In this document: positions 745 through 33,887 of the stretch, piece after piece
Layout: every line of letters starts with the position of its first letter
How positions within the stretch are numbered: the first letter of the stretch is position 1
Source of the DNA: a virus
Strand: one strand, 5' to 3'
DNA length: 37,517 nucleotides
Virus record (IMG/VR): IMGVR_UViG_3300027754_000222
Span: 1-37,517 of that record
Notes under the pieces: model-generated
Told to the model about the DNA's origin: nothing
Databases searched by the model: none
What the model saw: the letters and a program-made list of their open reading frames with translations, nothing else
Translations under genes and position numbers: made by a program

Positions 745-1051
745 CCCAACGCAGTTAAGTCTTAAAAAATTACGAGAAGAAGGATACACATGTTGGATTA
801 CAGAGCATTGGAATAGTTATGCTAGGATACGTCAAGATTTATTTGGTTTTATAGATATACTAGCTTTAAAGGGAAAAGAAACATTAGCTGTGCAAACAAC
901 TACAGCAACAAATATGTCAGCTAGAGTAAAGAAGATAGGTGACCATGAAAACGTAGGTCCAGTTCGTGAAGCTGGTTGGGCTATTCATGTACATGGTTGG
1001 CATCAAGACGATAAGAAAAAATGGCATTGCAAAGTGAAAGATGTATCATGA
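734..1051 (+). CDS. PD-(D/E)XK-like (Holliday-resolvase/VRR-NUC-like) protein, degenerate motif
   Basis: This 105-residue protein has a core reading DLFGFIDILALKG and then VQTTT. The spacing resembles the beta-hairpin of PD-(D/E)XK nucleases: D41 would be the motif-II aspartate, but the usual E-x-K is Q54-T-T. The N-terminal LKKLREEGY helix and the later GHVHGW-like strand also suit a small resolvase fold. The changed residues could mean an inactive or altered active site. Its position among nin-type genes supports a DNA-processing role. The partial second copy at 37312-37517 has the same D and QTT residues (58 of 68 identical by hand count), so the change is conserved and not a sequencing error. 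Confidence 0.6.
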   Translation: MATSPTQLSLKKLREEGYTCWITEHWNSYARIRQDLFGFIDILALKGKETLAVQTTTATNMSARVKKIGDHENVGPVREAGWAIHVHGWHQDDKKKWHCKVKDVS

Positions 1052-1398
1052 GTAACAAAGATAAAATAATAGCTTATCTTACAGAGCCTAAAACTATAAA
1101 AGCAATAGCTGAACATGTAGACGCTAACTATCACACTATTAAAAACTTGCTTGTAGCTATGAAGATGGAAGGTGATGTACATTCATTTAAAGATAACGAT
1201 AATAGACTTATGCACTATTACATTCCACAGCCACATCCATTACAAGCTATATTTGGACACACAGCAAACTTTACAGATGACCAGATAAAGAGCATTACAA
1301 TACATAATGCAGATGACTCTAAACATAACCTTCAGCATAATACTACACGAGAAACATTTGGGGAAAGCATAACCTATACGTTAGGTAAATATGATTAG
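1048..1398 (+). CDS. winged-helix DNA-binding protein
   Basis: I place the start at ATG 1048, which overlaps the preceding TGA (ATGA); an upstream start at 1021 would run inside the previous gene. The 116-residue product begins with a short winged-helix-like block of about 55 residues (KTIKAIAEHVDANYHTIKNL, then GDVHSF and a HYYI strand). The rest is polar, without a recognisable domain. It lies directly before the Q-like antiterminator and overlaps it by 8 bases, so it may help control early-to-late switching, but a replication role is just as possible. Only the DNA-binding fold is supported. Confidence 0.65.
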   Translation: MSNKDKIIAYLTEPKTIKAIAEHVDANYHTIKNLLVAMKMEGDVHSFKDNDNRLMHYYIPQPHPLQAIFGHTANFTDDQIKSITIHNADDSKHNLQHNTTRETFGESITYTLGKYD

Positions 1399-1720
1399 TA
1401 TGGAACGCTTACTATCTATTCTGGATGATTGGGCTTTGTGGATGAAGTCGGATAATCACAAGCTAGGTTATCCATCTAAAAGCATAGGCATGTCATCTGG
1501 TGGAGAGTCTACAAGTGATGCGTTTGAAGAAATGTGTTCTGCTCAGGATATGTCTAATGTAAGGACATTGCACGCTATCATACATAGTTTAGAAAAGCCT
1601 CAACAAGATGCTATCTATACTAAATACTTAGGTGCTAAACCAAAAATAGGCTATTATTGGGAGTTAGAACTAGCTTATGACAATTTACTGACAATAGCAG
1701 GTAGAAGGATAAACGCATAA
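1391..1720 (+). CDS. Q-like late antitermination protein (phage_antitermQ type)
   Basis: This 109-residue protein resembles the small Q antiterminators of lambdoid phages (PF06530-like). It has an N-terminal ILDDWALWM helix, a GYPSKSIG segment, a central LHAIIHSLEKPQQDAIYTKYLG block like the RNA-polymerase/DNA-contacting helices of that family, and a final helix ending in AGRRINA. The call rests mainly on context. The gene is last in the early rightward operon and is followed within 6 bases by a strong promoter and then an intrinsic terminator, as Q is by PR' and tR'. In that system Q loads on RNA polymerase paused near PR' and lets it pass tR' into the late genes. A profile search would settle the family. 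Confidence 0.65.
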   Translation: MISMERLLSILDDWALWMKSDNHKLGYPSKSIGMSSGGESTSDAFEEMCSAQDMSNVRTLHAIIHSLEKPQQDAIYTKYLGAKPKIGYYWELELAYDNLLTIAGRRINA

Positions 1721-1725
1721 TGTTG

Positions 1726-1755
1726 TTGAACAGAAATAGCAAAGTGTGCTATAAT
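1726..1755 (+). promoter_or_regulatory. late promoter (PR'-like), sigma70 type
   Basis: The -35 box is TTGAAC (1726-1731) and the -10 box is a perfect TATAAT (1750-1755), 18 bases apart, so transcription should begin near 1762. It is among the best consensus promoters in the window and faces the late genes. Just downstream are two small inverted repeats: GGACA/TGTCC (1766-1770, 1776-1780), and CGTTA-A-TAACG (1780-1790). These could form a pause signal or a Q-utilisation element in the leader. Confidence 0.8.
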
Positions 1756-1799
1756 ACTACTTGTTGGACAACTCCTGTCCGTTAATAACGTAATCCCAC

Positions 1800-1842
1800 A
1801 AAAGCCTGACTGCACTCTCTCCGTGGTTGGGCTTTTTCTTTT
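1800..1842 (+). terminator. intrinsic terminator in late leader (tR'-like)
   Basis: The left arm AAAAGCCTGAC (1800-1810) pairs with GTTGGGCTTTT (1826-1836), 11 pairs including two G-U wobbles. A second short stem, CAC/GTG (1813-1815, 1823-1825), closes a 7-base loop. The T-rich tract runs 1833-1842. It lies about 40-80 bases after the predicted late transcription start, so without antitermination most transcripts would end as a short leader RNA. Confidence 0.8.
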
Positions 1843-1844
1843 AT

Positions 1845-2012
1845 ATGAAACTATCTATTTGCGAACAATGTGGTGAACCTTTTGACTTCACCGAGTATTC
1901 TTTGTGCAACGATTGTAGACATGACCATAGATTTATTAAATTAAGGAAAGATAATGAAGTCAACACCCAAGACAAAAGCAGGCAAGATGGCAAAGATGAA
2001 AAAAGTATTTAA
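1845..2012 (+). CDS. small zinc-ribbon protein
   Basis: Starting at ATG 1845, just after the leader terminator, this 55-residue protein carries C-x2-C (EQCGEPF) and, about 15 residues later, C-x2-C (LCNDCRHDH), a typical single zinc ribbon. Its C-terminus is highly polar. A longer reading from TTG 1827 would lie inside the terminator stem, so I reject it. It is the first gene of the late transcript and overlaps the next one by 59 bases in another frame. The function is unknown; nucleic-acid binding is the usual role of such modules. Confidence 0.55.
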   Translation: MKLSICEQCGEPFDFTEYSLCNDCRHDHRFIKLRKDNEVNTQDKSRQDGKDEKSI

Positions 2013-2130
2013 AGAATTTGGTGCAGGAACTTTAAACGTAGGTAAGTCATCAAAAAAAGTGTCAAACCCTAAACAAGCCACCGCAATAGCTTTATCAGTT
2101 AGCGGTATGTCTAAAAAGAAAAGGAAATAA
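1954..2130 (+). CDS. small Lys-rich protein, DUF6496-like
   Basis: The ORF starts at ATG 1954 behind an AAGGAAAG ribosome-binding site and encodes 58 residues, 17 of them Lys or Arg and one acidic. The pattern KVFKEFGAGTLNVG, then a Lys-rich linker, then NPKQATAIALS matches the small DUF6496-type proteins seen near structural genes of many phages, as I remember them. It is strongly basic, so nucleic-acid binding is plausible, but no function is established. It overlaps the zinc-ribbon gene in another frame and is 2 bases from the next gene. Confidence 0.65.
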   Translation: MKSTPKTKAGKMAKMKKVFKEFGAGTLNVGKSSKKVSNPKQATAIALSVSGMSKKKRK

Positions 2131-2132
2131 TT

Positions 2133-2264
2133 ATGCCAATGGTCGGAAAAATGAAGTTTGCTTACACAGAAAAAGGTAAGAAAGAAGCTAAATCATACGC
2201 AAAGAAAACAGGTAAAGCTATGACAGCTAAGCCTATGAAAAAGGCAGCTAAACGTGGCAAGTAA
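2133..2264 (+). CDS. very small Lys-rich phage protein
   Basis: This 43-residue ORF begins 2 bases after the previous stop, at ATG 2133. About a third of its residues are Lys or Arg. It opens MPMVGKMKFAYTEKG and ends in a Lys/Ala-rich tail. Similar openings (MPMVG-K-F-YTEKG) recur in small proteins next to packaging genes of aquatic phages, from memory. The next gene starts inside its 3' end in another frame. Role unknown; a DNA-condensing or minor virion protein is conceivable. Confidence 0.6.
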   Translation: MPMVGKMKFAYTEKGKKEAKSYAKKTGKAMTAKPMKKAAKRGK

Positions 2265-2409
2265 ACCAGGCTTGTACAGTAATATTGCAAATAAACGTGC
2301 AAGAATCAAGGCTGGCTCAGGTGAGAAGATGCGCAAGGTAGGTTCTAAAGGTGCACCTACTGCTATGGCATTTAAACAATCAGCAAAGACAGCTAAGAAA
2401 AAGAAATGA
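2254..2409 (+). CDS. small basic phage protein with GTG start
   Basis: This 51-residue ORF starts at GTG 2254 inside the end of the previous gene and stops at TGA 2407-2409, sharing ATGA with the next gene. The sequence (SKPGLYSNIANKRARIKAGS, then MRKVGSKGAPTAMAF) belongs to a small family often found before terminase genes in aquatic podoviruses and siphoviruses, from memory. It is very basic and has no cysteine or membrane segment. The function is unknown. The GTG start is chosen because the family motif begins there and no ATG lies upstream in frame. Confidence 0.65.
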   Translation: MASKPGLYSNIANKRARIKAGSGEKMRKVGSKGAPTAMAFKQSAKTAKKKK

Positions 2410-2657
2410 TTAAGAAGGGTAAAGAAACATTTTCAGGTTATAATAAACCTAAAAGAACACCTAATCATCCTACTAAGTCACATGCAGTATTGGCTAAAGA
2501 TGGTGACCAAGAAAAACTTATACGCTTTGGACAAAAGGGCGTAAGTGGTGATAAAACAAATACAGATAGAGCAAAATCTTTTAAAGCAAGACACGCTAAA
2601 AACATTGCTAAAGGAAAAATGAGTGCTGCTTTTTGGGCTAACAAAGTAAAGTGGTAA
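2406..2657 (+). CDS. conserved small basic phage protein
   Basis: This 83-residue protein contains KSHAVLAKDGDQEKLIRFGQ, then GVSGDKTNTDRAKSFKARH, and ends SAAFWANKVKW. The block is well conserved in small proteins of many marine and freshwater phages, from memory, always near packaging or head genes. The core is basic and globular-looking, with a charged N-terminus. It overlaps the previous gene by 4 bases and the following GTG-started glycosyltransferase by 7, so all are co-translated. The function is unknown. Confidence 0.75.
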   Translation: MIKKGKETFSGYNKPKRTPNHPTKSHAVLAKDGDQEKLIRFGQKGVSGDKTNTDRAKSFKARHAKNIAKGKMSAAFWANKVKW

Positions 2658-3358
2658 AACTAGATATATATGTAGGATATGATGGCAAGGTAGAACCAAT
2701 TGCTTATCATAACTTTTGCCAGTCAGTTATAGAGAAGTCATCTATACCGGTTAGCTTTACACCATTAGCACTAAACACTTTAAAAGACTACAAAGAAACA
2801 CATACAGACGGTAGTAACGCATTTATCTACTCACGCTTTCTAGTGCCATATCTAAATAACTTTAAAGGTATCGCACTATTTGTAGATGGCGACATGATAT
2901 GCCGCACAGATATTGCAGAGATACTAGCTAACTTTGATACAGACGAAGCAATCAAGGTAGTTAAGCATCATTACCAAACAAAGCACCCTATTAAATATTT
3001 AGGTGCAAAGAACGAAGACTATCCTAAAAAGAATTGGTCAAGCGTTATGTTATGGAACTGTGGACATTGGCTCAATAAACAATTAACACCTAAGTTTGTG
3101 CAAGAACAAACAGGTAAATACCTACACAGGTTTGAATGGCTTAAGTATCCTGAAGAACAAGTAGGCAAGCTAGACGAAACATGGAACTGGCTAGAAACAG
3201 AATACGAATACAACCCAGATGCTAAGTTAGTCCATCACACCCTCGGCACACCTTGCTTTAAGGATTATCAGAATTCTGATTACGCAAAAGAGTGGTGGCA
3301 GACTTACCATAGAATGATATACCCACTTAAGGGTAATAACAAAGAATCAGAACTATAA
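2651..3358 (+). CDS. GT8-like glycosyltransferase
   Basis: This 235-residue protein begins (GTG start) with KLDIYVGYDGKVEPIAYHNF, the nucleotide-sugar-binding opening of GT-A fold enzymes. At residues 79-81 it has the metal-binding DGD (DxD) inside LFVDGDMICRTD. The later NWSSVMLWNC segment and PEEQVGKLDETWNWL, with a final HHTLGTPC, are typical of this phage GT family. It would transfer a sugar from a nucleotide donor; the acceptor (host glycan, virion protein or DNA base) cannot be read from the sequence. It sits just before the terminase genes, away from the second glycosyltransferase at 9569. Confidence 0.75.
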   Translation: MVKLDIYVGYDGKVEPIAYHNFCQSVIEKSSIPVSFTPLALNTLKDYKETHTDGSNAFIYSRFLVPYLNNFKGIALFVDGDMICRTDIAEILANFDTDEAIKVVKHHYQTKHPIKYLGAKNEDYPKKNWSSVMLWNCGHWLNKQLTPKFVQEQTGKYLHRFEWLKYPEEQVGKLDETWNWLETEYEYNPDAKLVHHTLGTPCFKDYQNSDYAKEWWQTYHRMIYPLKGNNKESEL

Positions 3359-3392
3359 CAGAGGGCAACCAACCTAAGGGAGTTGCAATATC

Positions 3393-3650
3393 ATGGCAGA
3401 ACGATTAAGAAAACGACATCAAGACGAAGTAAGAACAAAAATACAAACAAGTCAGCTAGTAAATGTCTTGCAAAATCATGCACTTGGTGTAGATGATGAA
3501 AAAGAAATTACACCTACACGCATGAAGGCAATAGAGATACTATTACGTAAGTCATTACCTGACCTATCATCTACAGAGATAAGTGGTGTAGATGGTGGAG
3601 ATATACCCATTGGTGTAGGAATTAGCTTTGTCAAACCAAACGATAGCTGA
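3393..3650 (+). CDS. terminase small subunit-like protein
   Basis: This 85-residue protein lies directly before TerL and overlaps it by 23 bases. It is mostly helical by composition: a basic N-terminus (AERLRKRHQDEVRTK), then a segment like the oligomerisation part of small terminases (LQNHALGVDDEKEITPTRMKAIEILLRKSLPDL). This pattern, TRMKA-IELLL-K-LPDL, is common in small-terminase-like proteins of aquatic phages. It would recognise the packaging site and hand the DNA to TerL. The upstream gap contains a GCAAC/GTTGC hairpin (3365-3369, 3382-3386) around the AAGGGAG ribosome-binding site, which could modulate translation. Confidence 0.7.
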   Translation: MAERLRKRHQDEVRTKIQTSQLVNVLQNHALGVDDEKEITPTRMKAIEILLRKSLPDLSSTEISGVDGGDIPIGVGISFVKPNDS

Positions 3651-4884
3651 GTTTCCTGATAAGTTACAGTTTCTATTTGAGCCACACCGTTACAAAGTAG
3701 CATACGGTGGTAGAGGTTCAGGTAAGTCATGGTCTATGGCTAGAGCATTGCTTATAAAAGCAGCGAATGAGCCAACACGTGTCTTATGTGCCAGAGAAAT
3801 ACAACGTAGTATTAAACAATCAGTACATACATTACTTAATGACCAGATACAGTCTTTAGGTCTAGGAGCTTTCTATGAAGTCCTAGAGTCAGAGATTAGA
3901 GGTCTTAACGGTAGTACATTTAGTTTTACCGGTCTTGCTACAAACACAGTAGAGTCTATAAAGTCTTTTGAAGGTTGTGATGTTGTATGGGTAGAAGAAG
4001 CTCAGACTGTTAGTAAGAAGTCATGGGACATATTAATACCTACAATACGTAAACCTAATTCAGAGATATGGGTATCATTCAACCCTAACATAGACACAGA
4101 CGACACATACACTAGATTTGTGGTAGAACCACCAGAGAACGCTAAGGTTGTTAAAGTAAACTATACTGACAATCCTTGGTTTCCTGAAGTGCTAGAAATT
4201 GAACGCCTACATAGTGAGAAGACTAACCCTGACTATGCAAACATCTGGGAAGGTGATTGTAAGGCTGCTGTAGATGGTGCTATATACTCTAACGAGATAC
4301 GAGAAGCACAAGAAGGTAACCGTATAACAACTGTACCTTATGACCCTATGATGAAGGTTCATGTAGTTATGGACTTAGGATGGAACGACAGCATGTCAGT
4401 TATCCTATGCCAAAAGGGTATATCAGATTTACGCATCATTGGTTATATAGAAGATGACCACAGAACATTAGATAGCTATTCTGCACAACTAAAGAACTTA
4501 TCCTATAACTGGGGTACAATGTTCTTACCACATGACGGACAGTCTAAAGACTTTAAGCATGGTATATCAGCAGAAGATATTATGAAGAAATTAGGATGGG
4601 ATATACGTATCGTGCCTAAAGCAGACATAGAGTCTGGTATTAAGTTAGCACGTATGAACTTCCACCGTATATACTTTGACAAGTCAGCACAAAGACTTGT
4701 TGAATGTTTAAAGAATTATCGCAGAAGTATAAACTCTGCAACCAACGAACCTGGTGCGCCATTGCATGATGAGTTTTCACATGGAGCAGACGCATTCAGA
4801 TACTTATGTACCTCTATAGAAGCTATGAAGAACGAATCATGGTCTAGAGAGAAGATACAATATAATACTAGAGGGATTGTTTAA
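3628..4884 (+). CDS. terL: terminase large subunit
   Basis: This 418-residue ATPase-nuclease packages DNA into proheads. Walker A is GGRGSGKS (residues 27-34), Walker B with the catalytic glutamate is VVWVEEA (119-125), and the C-terminal RNase-H-like nuclease begins VHVVMDLGWND with D249. A late HDEFSHGADAFRYL motif supplies another metal-binding acidic residue. Length and motifs fit the PBSX/Terminase_3 family. The start is TTG at 3628, because no ATG occurs before the Walker A region and the upstream sequence (IAEFPDKLQFLFEPHRYKVA) is typical of the family. TAATG coupling joins it to the portal gene. Confidence 0.95.
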   Translation: MSNQTIAEFPDKLQFLFEPHRYKVAYGGRGSGKSWSMARALLIKAANEPTRVLCAREIQRSIKQSVHTLLNDQIQSLGLGAFYEVLESEIRGLNGSTFSFTGLATNTVESIKSFEGCDVVWVEEAQTVSKKSWDILIPTIRKPNSEIWVSFNPNIDTDDTYTRFVVEPPENAKVVKVNYTDNPWFPEVLEIERLHSEKTNPDYANIWEGDCKAAVDGAIYSNEIREAQEGNRITTVPYDPMMKVHVVMDLGWNDSMSVILCQKGISDLRIIGYIEDDHRTLDSYSAQLKNLSYNWGTMFLPHDGQSKDFKHGISAEDIMKKLGWDIRIVPKADIESGIKLARMNFHRIYFDKSAQRLVECLKNYRRSINSATNEPGAPLHDEFSHGADAFRYLCTSIEAMKNESWSREKIQYNTRGIV

Positions 4885-6917
4885 TGAAGTTACAAGACAT
4901 GGAAATCATAGCTCAGGTAGAACTTGAAGAGAGTATGGCTTATGGTGTCAATGACTCTTCACTATCTAATGATAGAGCAGATGCAATTGACTATTACCTA
5001 GGTCAACCTTTTGGTAACGAAGAGGAAGGTCGTTCACAAGTAATTAGCTATGACGTACAAGATACGATTGAGGCTGCATTACCACAACTCTTAAAAGTCT
5101 TTGTAGCTGGTGATAAGGTTGTTCAGTTTGACCCTAAAGGTCCTGAAGACCAAGACGCAGCAGAGCAAGAAACAGATTACATTAACCATGTAGTCATGGA
5201 AAAGAACGAAGGGTTCAAGACATTCTACGTATGGTTTAAAGACGCACTACTTTCTAAGAATGGCTATGTAAAAGTCTATTCAGAAGATGAAGAAGAAGTA
5301 GAAGAATATGATTACAAAGGTTTAACTGATGCACAACTACAGATGTTGGCTTCAGATGAGAATACAGAAGTATTAGAACATACTGGCTATCCTGACCCAA
5401 CTGTCAATATGGATGTTATCTATCAGCAAGCAGCTATGAATGGTGTAGACCCTGCTACTATTATGCAACCTATGTTACATGATGTTAAGCTCAAGGTTAC
5501 AGAGAAAAAGACAGAGATTAAGATTGAAAACGTAGCACCTGAAAGCATTATGGTGTCTGTAGAAGTTACTGGTCCTAATCTAAAAGATGCACGCTTTGTT
5601 CAACATAGAGAAGTGATGCAGTTAGCTGACATTGCAAAAGCATTTAATAAGCCACTAGAATACATCAAGTCTATTATGTCAGACCTTCGTGATACGTTTG
5701 AAGAAGAGTCTAATGCACGTGATATTTATGATGAAGAATACGATAGAGCTATTGAGTCAGGCGAAGCATTAGTTAAAGACACTTATATTAAAATAGATGG
5801 TGAACGTCATAGAGTAGTTATCTTAGGCAACACAGTTCTTTATAAAGAAAAGACTGAGGTTGTACCTTTCGCATGTATCACTCCAATGATAATGCCACAT
5901 AGACATATCGGTCGTTCTTATGCTGACTTGACTATGGACATTCAGTTAATTAAGTCTACCCTTATTCGTGGTCAGTTAGATAACATGTATCTAGCTAACA
6001 ATGGTCGTTATGCTATCTCTGATAGAGTAAACCTAGATGATATGCTTACATCACGTCCAGGTGGTATTGTTCGTGTAGAAGGTGACCCAGGCTCAGGCAT
6101 TATGCCTTTATCACATCCACCACTACCAGCATCATCATTCGGTATGGTTGAATACATGGACTCTATGAAAGAAAAGAGAACAGGTGTTACAGCTTACAAT
6201 CAAGGCTTAGATGCTAACAGTCTAAACAAGACAGCTACCGGTGTAGCACAGATTATGAATGCGTCTCAACAACGTATTGAGTTAGTAGCTAGAACATTTG
6301 CAGAGACAGGTGTAAAAGAACTATTTAAACTTGTTCATAGACTTGTAAGAACTACACTTACCAAACCTGACATTGTTCGTATGCGTAACAAGTGGGTAGA
6401 AGTAGACCCTAGAGAATGGGAAGACCGTAATGATTTATCTATCTCTGTAGGATTAGGCGCAGGTAATAAAGACCAACAGTTAGCACATCTCATGTCTATC
6501 TTGAATATGCAAAAAGAAGCTATCCAAATAGGTCTTACATCACCAGAGAAGATATACAACGCACTCGCTAAACTTACACAGAACGCAGGCTTTAAGAACC
6601 CTGAAGAGTTCTGGACTAACCCATCTCAGAACCCACAAGGTGAACAACCAAAACAACCTGACCCTCAAGAAACTCTTATTCAAGGTCAGTTAGCTATTGA
6701 GCAACAAAAAGCTCAGTCTGATATGCAATTGGCACAACAAAAAGCACAGGCTCAGTTAGCACAAGAACAAGAACGTAGTAAGAATGACATTATTATTGAA
6801 CGTGAAAAGATAATGTCACAAGCAGAACTAGAAAGATTTAAAGCACAACTTAAAGCAGAGACAGATTTAGCTATTGCTCAAATCAAAGCTCAGTCAGGAA
6901 TGATGTATGGCGGATAA
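4884..6917 (+). CDS. portal protein (P22-like podovirus type)
   Basis: This 677-residue protein forms the dodecameric vertex through which DNA enters and leaves. It starts with a DRADAIDYYLGQPFGNEEEGRSQ segment and DVQDTIEAALPQLLKVFV, standard in P22-type portals, and includes RSYADLTMDIQLIKSTLIRG and GVTAYNQGLDANSLNKTATG, the hallmark stem/clip region of this family. The C-terminal 100 residues are rich in Gln, Lys and Ala, a coiled coil like the barrel of P22 portal. Its length is close to P22 gp1. It follows terL with a one-base overlap and overlaps the next small gene by 11 bases. Confidence 0.92.
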   Translation: MKLQDMEIIAQVELEESMAYGVNDSSLSNDRADAIDYYLGQPFGNEEEGRSQVISYDVQDTIEAALPQLLKVFVAGDKVVQFDPKGPEDQDAAEQETDYINHVVMEKNEGFKTFYVWFKDALLSKNGYVKVYSEDEEEVEEYDYKGLTDAQLQMLASDENTEVLEHTGYPDPTVNMDVIYQQAAMNGVDPATIMQPMLHDVKLKVTEKKTEIKIENVAPESIMVSVEVTGPNLKDARFVQHREVMQLADIAKAFNKPLEYIKSIMSDLRDTFEEESNARDIYDEEYDRAIESGEALVKDTYIKIDGERHRVVILGNTVLYKEKTEVVPFACITPMIMPHRHIGRSYADLTMDIQLIKSTLIRGQLDNMYLANNGRYAISDRVNLDDMLTSRPGGIVRVEGDPGSGIMPLSHPPLPASSFGMVEYMDSMKEKRTGVTAYNQGLDANSLNKTATGVAQIMNASQQRIELVARTFAETGVKELFKLVHRLVRTTLTKPDIVRMRNKWVEVDPREWEDRNDLSISVGLGAGNKDQQLAHLMSILNMQKEAIQIGLTSPEKIYNALAKLTQNAGFKNPEEFWTNPSQNPQGEQPKQPDPQETLIQGQLAIEQQKAQSDMQLAQQKAQAQLAQEQERSKNDIIIEREKIMSQAELERFKAQLKAETDLAIAQIKAQSGMMYGG

Positions 6918-31672: not shown

Positions 31673-31898
31673 TGTTAGCTTCTACTAATCGTTTACTATC
31701 ATACTTAGATAATCCTTTATATTCCTCTACAGGTTCACCAGGAAACAATGGTGTTATTTTAATGTGATGGGTTGTATTCTTTAAGTCGTTTAAATATGAG
31801 AGTTGGTTAGGATGAAATGACCATAAGTAAGACTTCTTTAGGTCACCTGACTTTATATCAAATTCCTCATACAAAAATGCTAGTGGTTCTTTTTTCAT
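31662..31898 (-). CDS. small hypothetical early protein
   Basis: This 78-residue hydrophilic protein reads KKEPLAFLYEEFDIKSGDLK near its start and contains YLWSFHPNQLSYLNDLKNTT, followed by HHIKITPLFPGEPVEEYKG. Its ATG overlaps the stop of the SleB-like gene (TAATG), and its end overlaps the next gene. Short proteins with an LYxxxD and ITPLYxxP pattern are frequent in early phage operons and remain uncharacterised. No cysteine or membrane segment is present. Confidence 0.6.
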   Translation of the reverse strand: MKKEPLAFLYEEFDIKSGDLKKSYLWSFHPNQLSYLNDLKNTTHHIKITPLFPGEPVEEYKGLSKYDSKRLVEANNGL

Positions 31899-32278
31899 TA
31901 GTAAAATACCATCCTTCCTATGTGCGTTTTCTTACGTTTACCGAACCATTCTTTCTTTGGCGGTATTGAGTCATCATGGAAATATAAAGCATTTGCAACT
32001 GGGTTAGTATGTTTATGATAAATAACCGTATCAATAACCAAAAGTTTAGTCTCCAAATACGCCCTTTCATCAACTGGATGGTGGGTTTCATCTTGCACAG
32101 CAAACTGATTATCAGCATAAACAACAGAGCATACAGAACGACCCCAGCGACCAGAATATAACCTATTACGTATAACATTTATAACACCTACCTTTTCTTC
32201 TAGTGTTCTTGTATTAACTTCATGGTACACAGCAGTTGCATAACACGCCACATCTAATTCTAAATTATGTATATCCAT
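31898..32278 (-). CDS. SleB-like cell wall hydrolase
   Basis: This 126-residue protein matches the Hydrolase_2 (SleB) domain: ACYATAVYHEVNTRTLEEKV with the catalytic Glu in YHE, GVINVIRNRLYSGRWGRSVC, SVVYADNQFAV, and near the end ANALYFHDDS and IGRMVFY. SleB enzymes are lytic transglycosylases that cleave peptidoglycan. It has no signal peptide. It lies in the early leftward operon far from the lysis genes. Its ribosome-binding site (GAAAGG) is 7 bases before the ATG. It may remodel the cell wall early in infection or be packaged. Confidence 0.82.
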   Translation of the reverse strand: MDIHNLELDVACYATAVYHEVNTRTLEEKVGVINVIRNRLYSGRWGRSVCSVVYADNQFAVQDETHHPVDERAYLETKLLVIDTVIYHKHTNPVANALYFHDDSIPPKKEWFGKRKKTHIGRMVFY

Positions 32279-32298: not shown

Positions 32299-32331
32299 CT
32301 TGTGTCTAGTAAACCCACACAAGCGTATAAT
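32299..32331 (+). promoter_or_regulatory. promoter-like sequence with inverted repeat upstream of pqqA
   Basis: A perfect -10 box TATAAT lies at 32326-32331. Just upstream, CTTGTGT (32299-32305) and ACACAAG (32317-32323) form a perfect 7-bp inverted repeat with an 11-base spacer, covering the -35 region. No close match to TTGACA is present (GTGTCT lies at 18-base spacing). This could be an activator or repressor site controlling pqqA. It also lies in the 5' leader of the leftward SleB-like gene. Confidence 0.5.
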
Positions 32332-32364
32332 TCTACTATAAATCTAGAAGAAAGGAGAACTGCC

Positions 32365-32436
32365 ATGTGGACAACACCATCAGCAACTGAAATGCGTTTT
32401 GGCTTTGAAGTAACCATGTACGTAATGAATAAATAG
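32365..32436 (+). CDS. pqqA: PqqA, coenzyme PQQ precursor peptide (phage-encoded)
   Basis: This 23-residue ORF (ATG 32365, TAG 32434-32436) encodes a PqqA. The N-terminus reads MWTTPSATEMRF and continues GFEVTMYVMNK. The conserved Glu15 and Tyr19 of the E-x3-Y motif, which PqqE crosslinks and later enzymes convert to pyrroloquinoline quinone, are in place. The length, 23, equals that of the Klebsiella pneumoniae peptide. A strong site (AAAGGAG) lies 7 bases before the ATG. No pqqB, C, D or E gene occurs here, so the peptide would use the host enzymes, raising PQQ supply for methanol or other dehydrogenases. It is on the plus strand inside a minus-strand operon, which suggests a separately acquired cargo gene. 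Confidence 0.9.
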   Translation: MWTTPSATEMRFGFEVTMYVMNK

Positions 32437-32459
32437 TTATCATGCCAATGGGGATGCTC

Positions 32460-32696
32460 CTAAAAAGGAACATCCTCATCTGCGCCTTCAACAGCCGGTT
32501 TAAGTCTTTCATCAGTTGCTACCATTGCTACAGCACCAGCAATAAATTTACCATTAGGACCTTCTTTAACCCAACCTGATAAAGTAAATTCAATACCATC
32601 TACATTTAACTTTCCTCTATAGTCTGGTCGTTTAGGATTATCCCCCTTATCGTTTTTGTTTAACGTAAACGTGTTTGTTTTGTCATACTCAGCCAT
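32460..32696 (-). CDS. SSB-like small protein with acidic C-terminal tail
   Basis: This 78-residue protein begins AEYDKTNTFTLNKNDKGDNP, has strands GKLNVDGIEFTLSGWVKEGP and KFIAGAVAMVA, and ends EGADEDVPF. The acidic tail with a terminal Pro-Phe is the signature of single-stranded DNA-binding proteins (as in DDDIPF of E. coli SSB), used to recruit partner enzymes. The body is shorter than SSB and more like small phage proteins of the DUF736 style. It lies just after the YqaJ exonuclease and annealing protein, so a role in recombination fits. A small inverted repeat (32452-32475) overlaps its 3' end. Confidence 0.62.
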   Translation of the reverse strand: MAEYDKTNTFTLNKNDKGDNPKRPDYRGKLNVDGIEFTLSGWVKEGPNGKFIAGAVAMVATDERLKPAVEGADEDVPF

Positions 32697-32699
32697 ATA

Positions 32700-33329
32700 C
32701 TACTCCTTTAGTTTTAAAATTGTTTGGTCTACTTCGTCTAGGAACTTAATTACTTCTGCTTCTAATTCTGCTATGTAATCATTATCTCTTTCAACCCTAG
32801 CTACAAAGAGTTGCATTGTATCAGGAAAATTTGGGTTATAAGAGATAAAATCACACCATTTTACATTAGGACTTACAGAAGCCATTTGCCATTGTATCTG
32901 TGGTATATACTTACTAGGAACTGACTTGCTCATAAGCGTATTAGTATGGGTAGTTTCTATAGGGCATTTAATCTCTATAAGACCCGCATACTTACCATCT
33001 TCTTCTGCATTTACAGCTCCGTCAGGACTAGCACCGCTATTCTTAATAATGGGATGGTCAAAGAAACCTACCTCTGTCACAGATACCCCTCTAGTTCGCA
33101 TATAAAGCTCCCTAGCAGCACTTTCTCTCTCAATACCATCTAACATAGCCTGATTAACAAAACTATCGCCTTTCTTGCTTGTTAATCGTTCTGATACAAG
33201 CTGTATAAGATAGTTTTGACGAGATGTAGACACACCTGTTTTAGTTTTTGCTATTACGTCACTAATGCGACTGGCGGTTACTTTTCCTAGCCGTTGCTCA
33301 AACCATTCTTCTGTGCGTTGCTCTATCAT
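32700..33329 (-). CDS. YqaJ-like exonuclease
   Basis: This 209-residue nuclease starts IEQRTEEWFEQRLGKVTASR and has the PD-(D/E)XK active site: D103 in SGASPDGAV, and E119-I-K121 in LIEIKCP. E69 in GIERESAARELY is the additional acidic residue of lambda-exonuclease folds. YqaJ/lambda Exo enzymes resect DNA ends 5' to 3' to make the single strands used by annealing proteins. It overlaps the annealing-protein gene by 4 bases, forming a Red-like pair with it. The C-terminus is helical (AELEAEVIKFLDEVDQTIL). Confidence 0.9.
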   Translation of the reverse strand: MIEQRTEEWFEQRLGKVTASRISDVIAKTKTGVSTSRQNYLIQLVSERLTSKKGDSFVNQAMLDGIERESAARELYMRTRGVSVTEVGFFDHPIIKNSGASPDGAVNAEEDGKYAGLIEIKCPIETTHTNTLMSKSVPSKYIPQIQWQMASVSPNVKWCDFISYNPNFPDTMQLFVARVERDNDYIAELEAEVIKFLDEVDQTILKLKE

Positions 33330-33727
33330 AAAAAATCCTTACTAGAAACAGCTTTTACAACTGGTTGTTCTGACTCTGGAATATCCTCACCACTATAAAT
33401 ATAAAGACCAATACCATGTAATGCAATAGCTTTAGCTAAACAACGTTGCATAGCTGTATTAACTGCCATTGCATCTGGGCTAGAAATAGCTTGGTTTCTA
33501 AAGTTAAGCACAGGTAATTGTGAAGTCATAGACTTACCAAACGCATGAACTGTGCAAAATACCATAAGTGTTTCACCAAACTGTTTAGGTTCTTTATATT
33601 CCCAGGTAGCAGATGGGTCTTGTTGTAAAAGTGTGTCAACGGCATAAGCCCAAGAAAGGTAGCTTAGTCCATTCTTCTTCTCAATATTTTCTGATACGTT
33701 AATCTTACGTAGTTCGTTATAGTTCAT
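33326..33727 (-). CDS. single-strand annealing protein, DUF1071 (Sak3-like)
   Basis: I place the start at ATG (33727-33725), which has an AGGAG site 6 bases upstream. A longer version from 33799 would overlap the neighbouring gene and begins with Gln-rich sequence unlike the family. The 133-residue protein has NGLSYLSWAYAVDTLLQQDP, TLMVFCTVHAFGKSMTSQLP and MAVNTAMQRCLAKAIALHGI, the marks of DUF1071, a Rad52-like recombinase. It would pair strands made by the YqaJ exonuclease during replication and repair of phage DNA. Confidence 0.85.
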   Translation of the reverse strand: MNYNELRKINVSENIEKKNGLSYLSWAYAVDTLLQQDPSATWEYKEPKQFGETLMVFCTVHAFGKSMTSQLPVLNFRNQAISSPDAMAVNTAMQRCLAKAIALHGIGLYIYSGEDIPESEQPVVKAVSSKDFL

Positions 33728-33887
33728 CTTTCTCTCCTGTTGTAATTCTTGTTGATGTTGTTCCATCATTACTTGGTCGTAGTGTTGTTGTTGTGACATT
33801 TGCTCTCTCCCATTTGTCGTTATCTAATTTAAGTTCGTCATTCAATCGTTTAAGAATATCTGCTATCTGTTCTAAACCATTCGCCAT
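33717..33887 (-). CDS. small hypothetical early protein
   Basis: Starting at ATG (33887-33885) with a GGGG ribosome-binding site, this 56-residue protein has an N-terminal amphipathic helix (NGLEQIADILKRLNDELKLD) and a Thr/Ser-rich tail (ANVTTTTLRPSNDGTTSTRI). It overlaps the annealing-protein gene by 11 bases. Reading further upstream would add a hydrophobic stretch that belongs to a separate tiny ORF in another frame. The function is unknown; the helix pattern suggests a protein-protein interaction. Confidence 0.6.
   Translation of the reverse strand: MANGLEQIADILKRLNDELKLDNDKWERANVTTTTLRPSNDGTTSTRITTGEKDEL

Follow-up and report, generated by a model that had tools for sequence, protein, structure and literature searches.

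Does a 23-codon ORF in a phage genome encode a functional PqqA, the ribosomal substrate peptide that is turned into PQQ, and why would a phage carry this gene alone? The ORF lies in a 37,517-base IMG/VR virus record, the whole of which was analysed and is referred to here as the window. The relevant features are listed below.

3628–4884, + strand: terminase large subunit gene (phrog_3717)
31898–32278, − strand: endolysin-like gene, divergent neighbour of pqqA (phrog_938)
32323–32334, + strand: putative −10 box GCGTATAATTCT, with TATAAT at 32326–32331 and no clear consensus −35
32351–32357, + strand: Shine-Dalgarno sequence AAAGGAG, 7 nt before the ATG
32365–32436, + strand: pqqA (translation, PF08042, TIGR02107, phage relatives)
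32448–32479, no strand assigned: hairpin between the convergent pqqA and SSB genes (−20.5 kcal/mol, z −4.8)
32460–32696, − strand: single-strand DNA binding protein (SSB) gene, convergent neighbour (phrog_18154, phrog_7364)
32700–33329, − strand: YqaJ/RecE-like exonuclease gene (phrog_149)
33326–33799, − strand: Sak-like ssDNA annealing protein gene (phrog_8492)

The ORF at 32365–32436 is real and encodes PqqA. It consists of 23 codons and a stop, and with its Shine-Dalgarno sequence and start codon it fits the size expected of PqqA (about 22–29 residues). The translation, MWTTPSATEMRFGFEVTMYVMNK, includes GFEVTMY at residues 13–19 and both members of the E-x3-Y crosslink pair, Glu15 and Tyr19. 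The peptide matched PF08042 (Pfam) with 41.3 bits against a cut-off of 21.1 (E=1.4e-10) and TIGR02107 (NCBIfam) with 38.5 bits against a cut-off of 20 (E=6.9e-10), exceeding the curated cut-offs of both PqqA families approximately 2-fold, far beyond chance. A search of the PDB with the peptide found no match. The initial annotation, made from the sequence alone, had described a phage-encoded PqqA with an upstream AAAGGAG, the GFEVTMY motif and the Glu/Tyr pair, and each of these elements was confirmed, as was the location in a phage, given the terminase, portal, scaffold and capsid genes in the window and the presence of pqqA in isolate genomes. Binding of the window peptide by PqqD and its crosslinking by PqqE are inferred, without biochemical data.

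The window also contains SSB, exonuclease, Sak and helicase genes, and pqqA is the only + strand gene between the divergent endolysin-like gene and the convergent − strand SSB-exonuclease-Sak cluster. Translation signals are a general property of the viral genes, as a Shine-Dalgarno sequence was found in 143 of 146 distinct viral pqqA upstream regions compared with 8.7 in shuffled sequences. An exact TATAAT was present in 48 of the 146 (16.8 in shuffles). The TATAAT box is retained upstream of pqqA in near relatives, and the window itself has only this one exact copy of GCGTATAATTCT. A generic promoter scan gave no excess and did not include the box at 32326–32331 in its output, and its assignment as a −10 element remains putative, backed only by conservation. 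The hairpin at 32448–32479 is possibly a two-way transcript end, though this is an inference and there is no clear U-run; hairpin-like sequences of a similar kind are found in relatives. It overlaps codons of the acidic SSB C-terminal tail (DEDVPF), and the sequence may be doing double duty, coding and ending transcripts. An upstream inverted repeat, CTTGTGT...ACACAAG, was rejected as a regulator site because relatives do not conserve its right arm, and this region folded no better than shuffles. An Rfam search gave no match and a tRNA search found none.

When 50,697 phage records were searched with the window peptide using tblastn, 12 matches were obtained, namely nine methylophage isolate records (P19250A, Venkman, MEP301, MEP401, MEP402 and four Melnitz variants), MW202481 and two Acinetobacter contigs. 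The latter (Acinetobacter phage MD-2021a) were rejected, as they include a bacterial pqqABCDE operon under a phage name and probably derive from the host chromosome. Hence, pqqA was present in every methylotroph-phage genome found as well as in their metagenomic relative MW202481. Here, "every" refers to those matched; HIM624-A, MEP431–434 and Venkman EXVC038S were not among the matches. The isolates' own annotation and their terminases place them in about five unrelated phage types, and the position of the gene varies, at the head of a gene row in MEP402 and before tRNA-Leu in Melnitz. A reliable tree cannot be built from 23 residues, and the number of captures was therefore argued from the unrelated genomes and placements. 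The gene is unnamed in the methylophage isolate records and in MW202481, and has been overlooked in part because a spurious antisense ORF is annotated across it, as seen in Melnitz-1 and MW202481.

The terminase large subunit was used to place the window phage and to sample its relatives. None of nine phage relatives found by terminase had a PqqA match, even at E≤1. Five are SAR11 phages (Pelagibacter phages HTVC024P, HTVC010P, HTVC106P, Lederberg and Hodr) and the others are Rhodoferax P26218, Roseobacter CRP-4, Lentibacter ICBM2 and MW202697, for which the host is unknown. As these relatives lack PqqA and the hosts of eight of the nine are not methylotrophs, pqqA tracks host methylotrophy, not phage lineage. 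Among records of the window's type, identified by terminase or portal, 16 of the 20 that are at least 20 kb carried pqqA, as did all 11 of at least 34 kb, and the four lacking it are fragments of 20–30 kb. The gene thus meets two expectations for an auxiliary metabolic gene (AMG), namely a host-like metabolic gene within a genuine phage genome, here in isolates and the window, and a distribution that matches the metabolism of the hosts and not the descent of the phages. The records closest to the window, MW202481 and Methylophilales phage Venkman, support the methylotroph host group proposed initially; for the window itself, phage relatedness is the only basis for inferring this host.

Viral pqqA loci in IMG/VR were found using degenerate DNA patterns, and the GFEVTMY pattern recovered at least 120 loci. 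One exact codon variant accounted for six of the 120 listed matches and occurs 103 times in IMG/VR, which, if the listed matches are a fair sample, extrapolates to about 2,000 contigs with pqqA (975–5,500). At least one ORF is shared with a methylophage reference or the window in 96 of the 120 listed loci. The suggestion that the gene would be missed in most annotations and be more widespread is therefore supported by the loci in IMG/VR as well as by the unnamed genes in isolates. A pattern for alphaproteobacterial PqqA was found in two viral contigs, one of them in a chance frame. In the IMG/VR contig at L518:2700–2800, the Methylobacterium-type PqqA MKWSAPIVQEVCVGMEVTSYESAEIDTFN has no pqqBCDE nearby, and whether this is a phage or a prophage edge is undecided.

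Since counts of Glu15 and Tyr19 in loci selected by GFEVTMY are circular, a second scan was performed in which only codons 1–12 were fixed and codons 13–23 were left free. Glu15 and Tyr19 were present in all 120 viral loci recovered with this N-terminal pattern, in which the Tyr19 codon was TAC in 67 and TAT in 53. For this set, dN/dS was 0.024 for codons 13–23, with near-saturated synonymous sites, and 0.006 for codons 13–19, and for codons 2–12 in the core-sampled set it was 0.18. Among copies sampled by terminase or portal from phages of the window's type, dN/dS was 0.09 and the differences were mostly synonymous. The ORF is intact in related phages with its Glu and Tyr codons kept, and even a divergent relative, MWTTPAATEIRLGMEITAYVMNR, with several changes in the core retains both residues. 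Two of the conditions proposed initially for refuting PqqA, on profile similarity and on related phages, are thus not fulfilled. These codon comparisons demonstrate purifying selection on viral pqqA. Host genes under constraint that were captured repeatedly and recently could account for part of the conservation, although the mostly synonymous differences within the window's type speak against this. Of 158 viral peptides, 71 were identical to a host peptide.

The viral genes are orphans. No pqqBCDE genes were found in the flanks of the 120 listed viral loci, compared with 55 of 118 bacterial loci, and no PqqE over the cut-off was found in the 47 viral records searched (sets of 32 and 15, with two records in both sets). 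Of 42 viral records with pqqA that were tested, a single one, of 72 kb (L051), also had a PQQ-dependent alcohol/methanol dehydrogenase. Methylophilaceae genomes hold the rest of the pathway. All 120 examined contain pqqA (median four copies, range 1–12, single copy in only three), and each of 23 streamlined genomes (1.2–1.4 Mb) had one PqqE over the cut-off and mostly three pqqA. Between three and 12 pqqA copies have been reported where the remaining pqq genes are typically single copy (PMC4109929). Hence, the hosts show the same bias as the phages, with pqqA multiplied and PqqE single; this is most simply explained if each PQQ uses up one PqqA and supply is important. In OM43, xoxF, the product of which needs PQQ, is usually the most abundant transcript (PMC5120137). 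In streamlined marine Methylophilaceae, tandem pqqA genes lie about 200 bases apart (host loci such as L171 and L182).

We consider it likely that the phage pqqA is functional and supplies substrate for host PQQ synthesis. During infection, the phage would make extra PqqA, host PqqD would bind it and host PqqE would crosslink Glu15 to Tyr19. Host PqqB, PqqC and proteases would complete PQQ, which would load the very abundant XoxF/MxaF methanol dehydrogenase, and PQQ would be sustained through infection. One PqqA is destroyed for each PQQ, while the pathway enzymes are catalytic and can outlast host shut-off. Phages may carry pqqA alone because the consumed peptide is the only part that needs resupply. 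Modification by host enzymes, raised PQQ and a benefit to infection are inferred, in the absence of expression, ribosome or PQQ data. There is also no evidence that PqqA limits PQQ in infected cells, and the hosts already have several copies. Two functions had been offered initially, and added substrate is favoured because the crosslink residues are invariant, many viral peptides are identical to those of hosts and hosts multiply pqqA; diversion of PqqE/PqqD gains no support and is not excluded.

Cyanophage psbA (D1) is an auxiliary metabolic gene by which a phage supplies a rapidly consumed part of the host energy machinery. Phage pqqA is similar in that it supplies a consumed component, but the psbA product is an enzyme subunit whereas PqqA is a ribosomally made substrate that becomes a cofactor. 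Host PqqA of Methylophilaceae has the same length, the Glu15/Tyr19 pair and the GFEVTMY core, and many viral copies are identical to it letter for letter, but the phage genes stand without the rest of the pathway and their upstream regions vary. Viral pqqA is already known from isolated reports. PqqA was reported as an auxiliary metabolic gene of the T4-like methylotroph virus VP_266 from Lake Baikal in 2020 (PMC7678222), and virus-encoded pqqA/E/D are listed in a 2026 reservoir study (PMC13188868). VP_266 is a single metagenomic population that also carries methanol dehydrogenase, whereas here pqqA was found in isolates of several phage types and a dehydrogenase accompanied it in one of 42 records. 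Phage PqqA is not mentioned in the OM43 phage papers PMC9004378, PMC10580990 and PMC8024684. In the open-access literature searched, the near-universality of pqqA in methylophages, its convergent acquisition, the selection on it and its hiddenness appear to be new.

The peptide might instead harm the host pathway, with phage PqqA flooding PqqD and PqqE to block or divert PQQ synthesis and slow methanol oxidation. Binding to PqqD and PqqE is expected from established PQQ biochemistry and pqqA does travel without other pqq genes, but interference would not need both crosslink residues, yet both are invariant. Viral peptides that are the host substrate itself, hosts that raise their own pqqA copy number and are unlikely to be harmed by more, and the pairing of pqqA with a PQQ dehydrogenase in one viral record and in VP_266 favour promotion, making interference quite improbable. 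PQQ has uses in bacteria besides methanol dehydrogenase, and the peptide could be made and modified mainly for one of these, such as redox protection or release at lysis. This is unlikely, given that methanol dehydrogenase is the dominant quinoprotein of methylotroph hosts (PMC5120137) and that one viral record pairs pqqA with a PQQ alcohol dehydrogenase.

That host pqqA copies are captured repeatedly and persist without function is conceivable for a short gene with many host copies available and several placements. It is very hard to reconcile with purifying selection within phage lineages, near-saturated synonymous sites, the gene's presence in all window-type relatives of at least 34 kb, the Shine-Dalgarno sequences and its absence from the nearest phages of other hosts. 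Misassignment of host DNA to a virus, which does explain the two Acinetobacter contigs with host pqqABCDE, or an assembly artefact can practically be dismissed for the remainder, since cultured phages contain pqqA in their isolate genomes, the window has phage structural and packaging genes, and most listed IMG/VR loci share ORFs with methylophages and none has pqqBCDE in its flank.

Beyond the supply of substrate, we lean towards a broader reading in which pqqA is a methylophage signature gene, repeatedly acquired, strongly selected and needed for phages to be fully productive, since the renewal of PQQ once the host is shut off would be limited by PqqA supply. If so, it is a simple sequence marker that could assign a methylotroph host to unknown metagenomic phages. 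Coastal and fresh waters commonly contain methylophages, and a sizeable flow of carbon passes through methanol oxidation by OM43 and Methylopumilus. A hidden pqqA in every such phage found here would mean that control of methanol oxidation by viruses has gone unnoticed, since genes of 23 codons are shorter than gene callers accept. As a metabolic gene its form is unusual, providing only a consumed substrate peptide and no enzyme.

One 52-kb virus record (G134) contains two pqqA genes (L513 and L515) with different upstream regions, the result of either a genuine duplication or chimeric assembly. Two phages that fall outside the methylophage reference types have pqqA in a late-gene placement, directly after the major capsid gene in one (L036:9121–9195) and adjoining the terminase large subunit gene in the other (L033:7643–7720).
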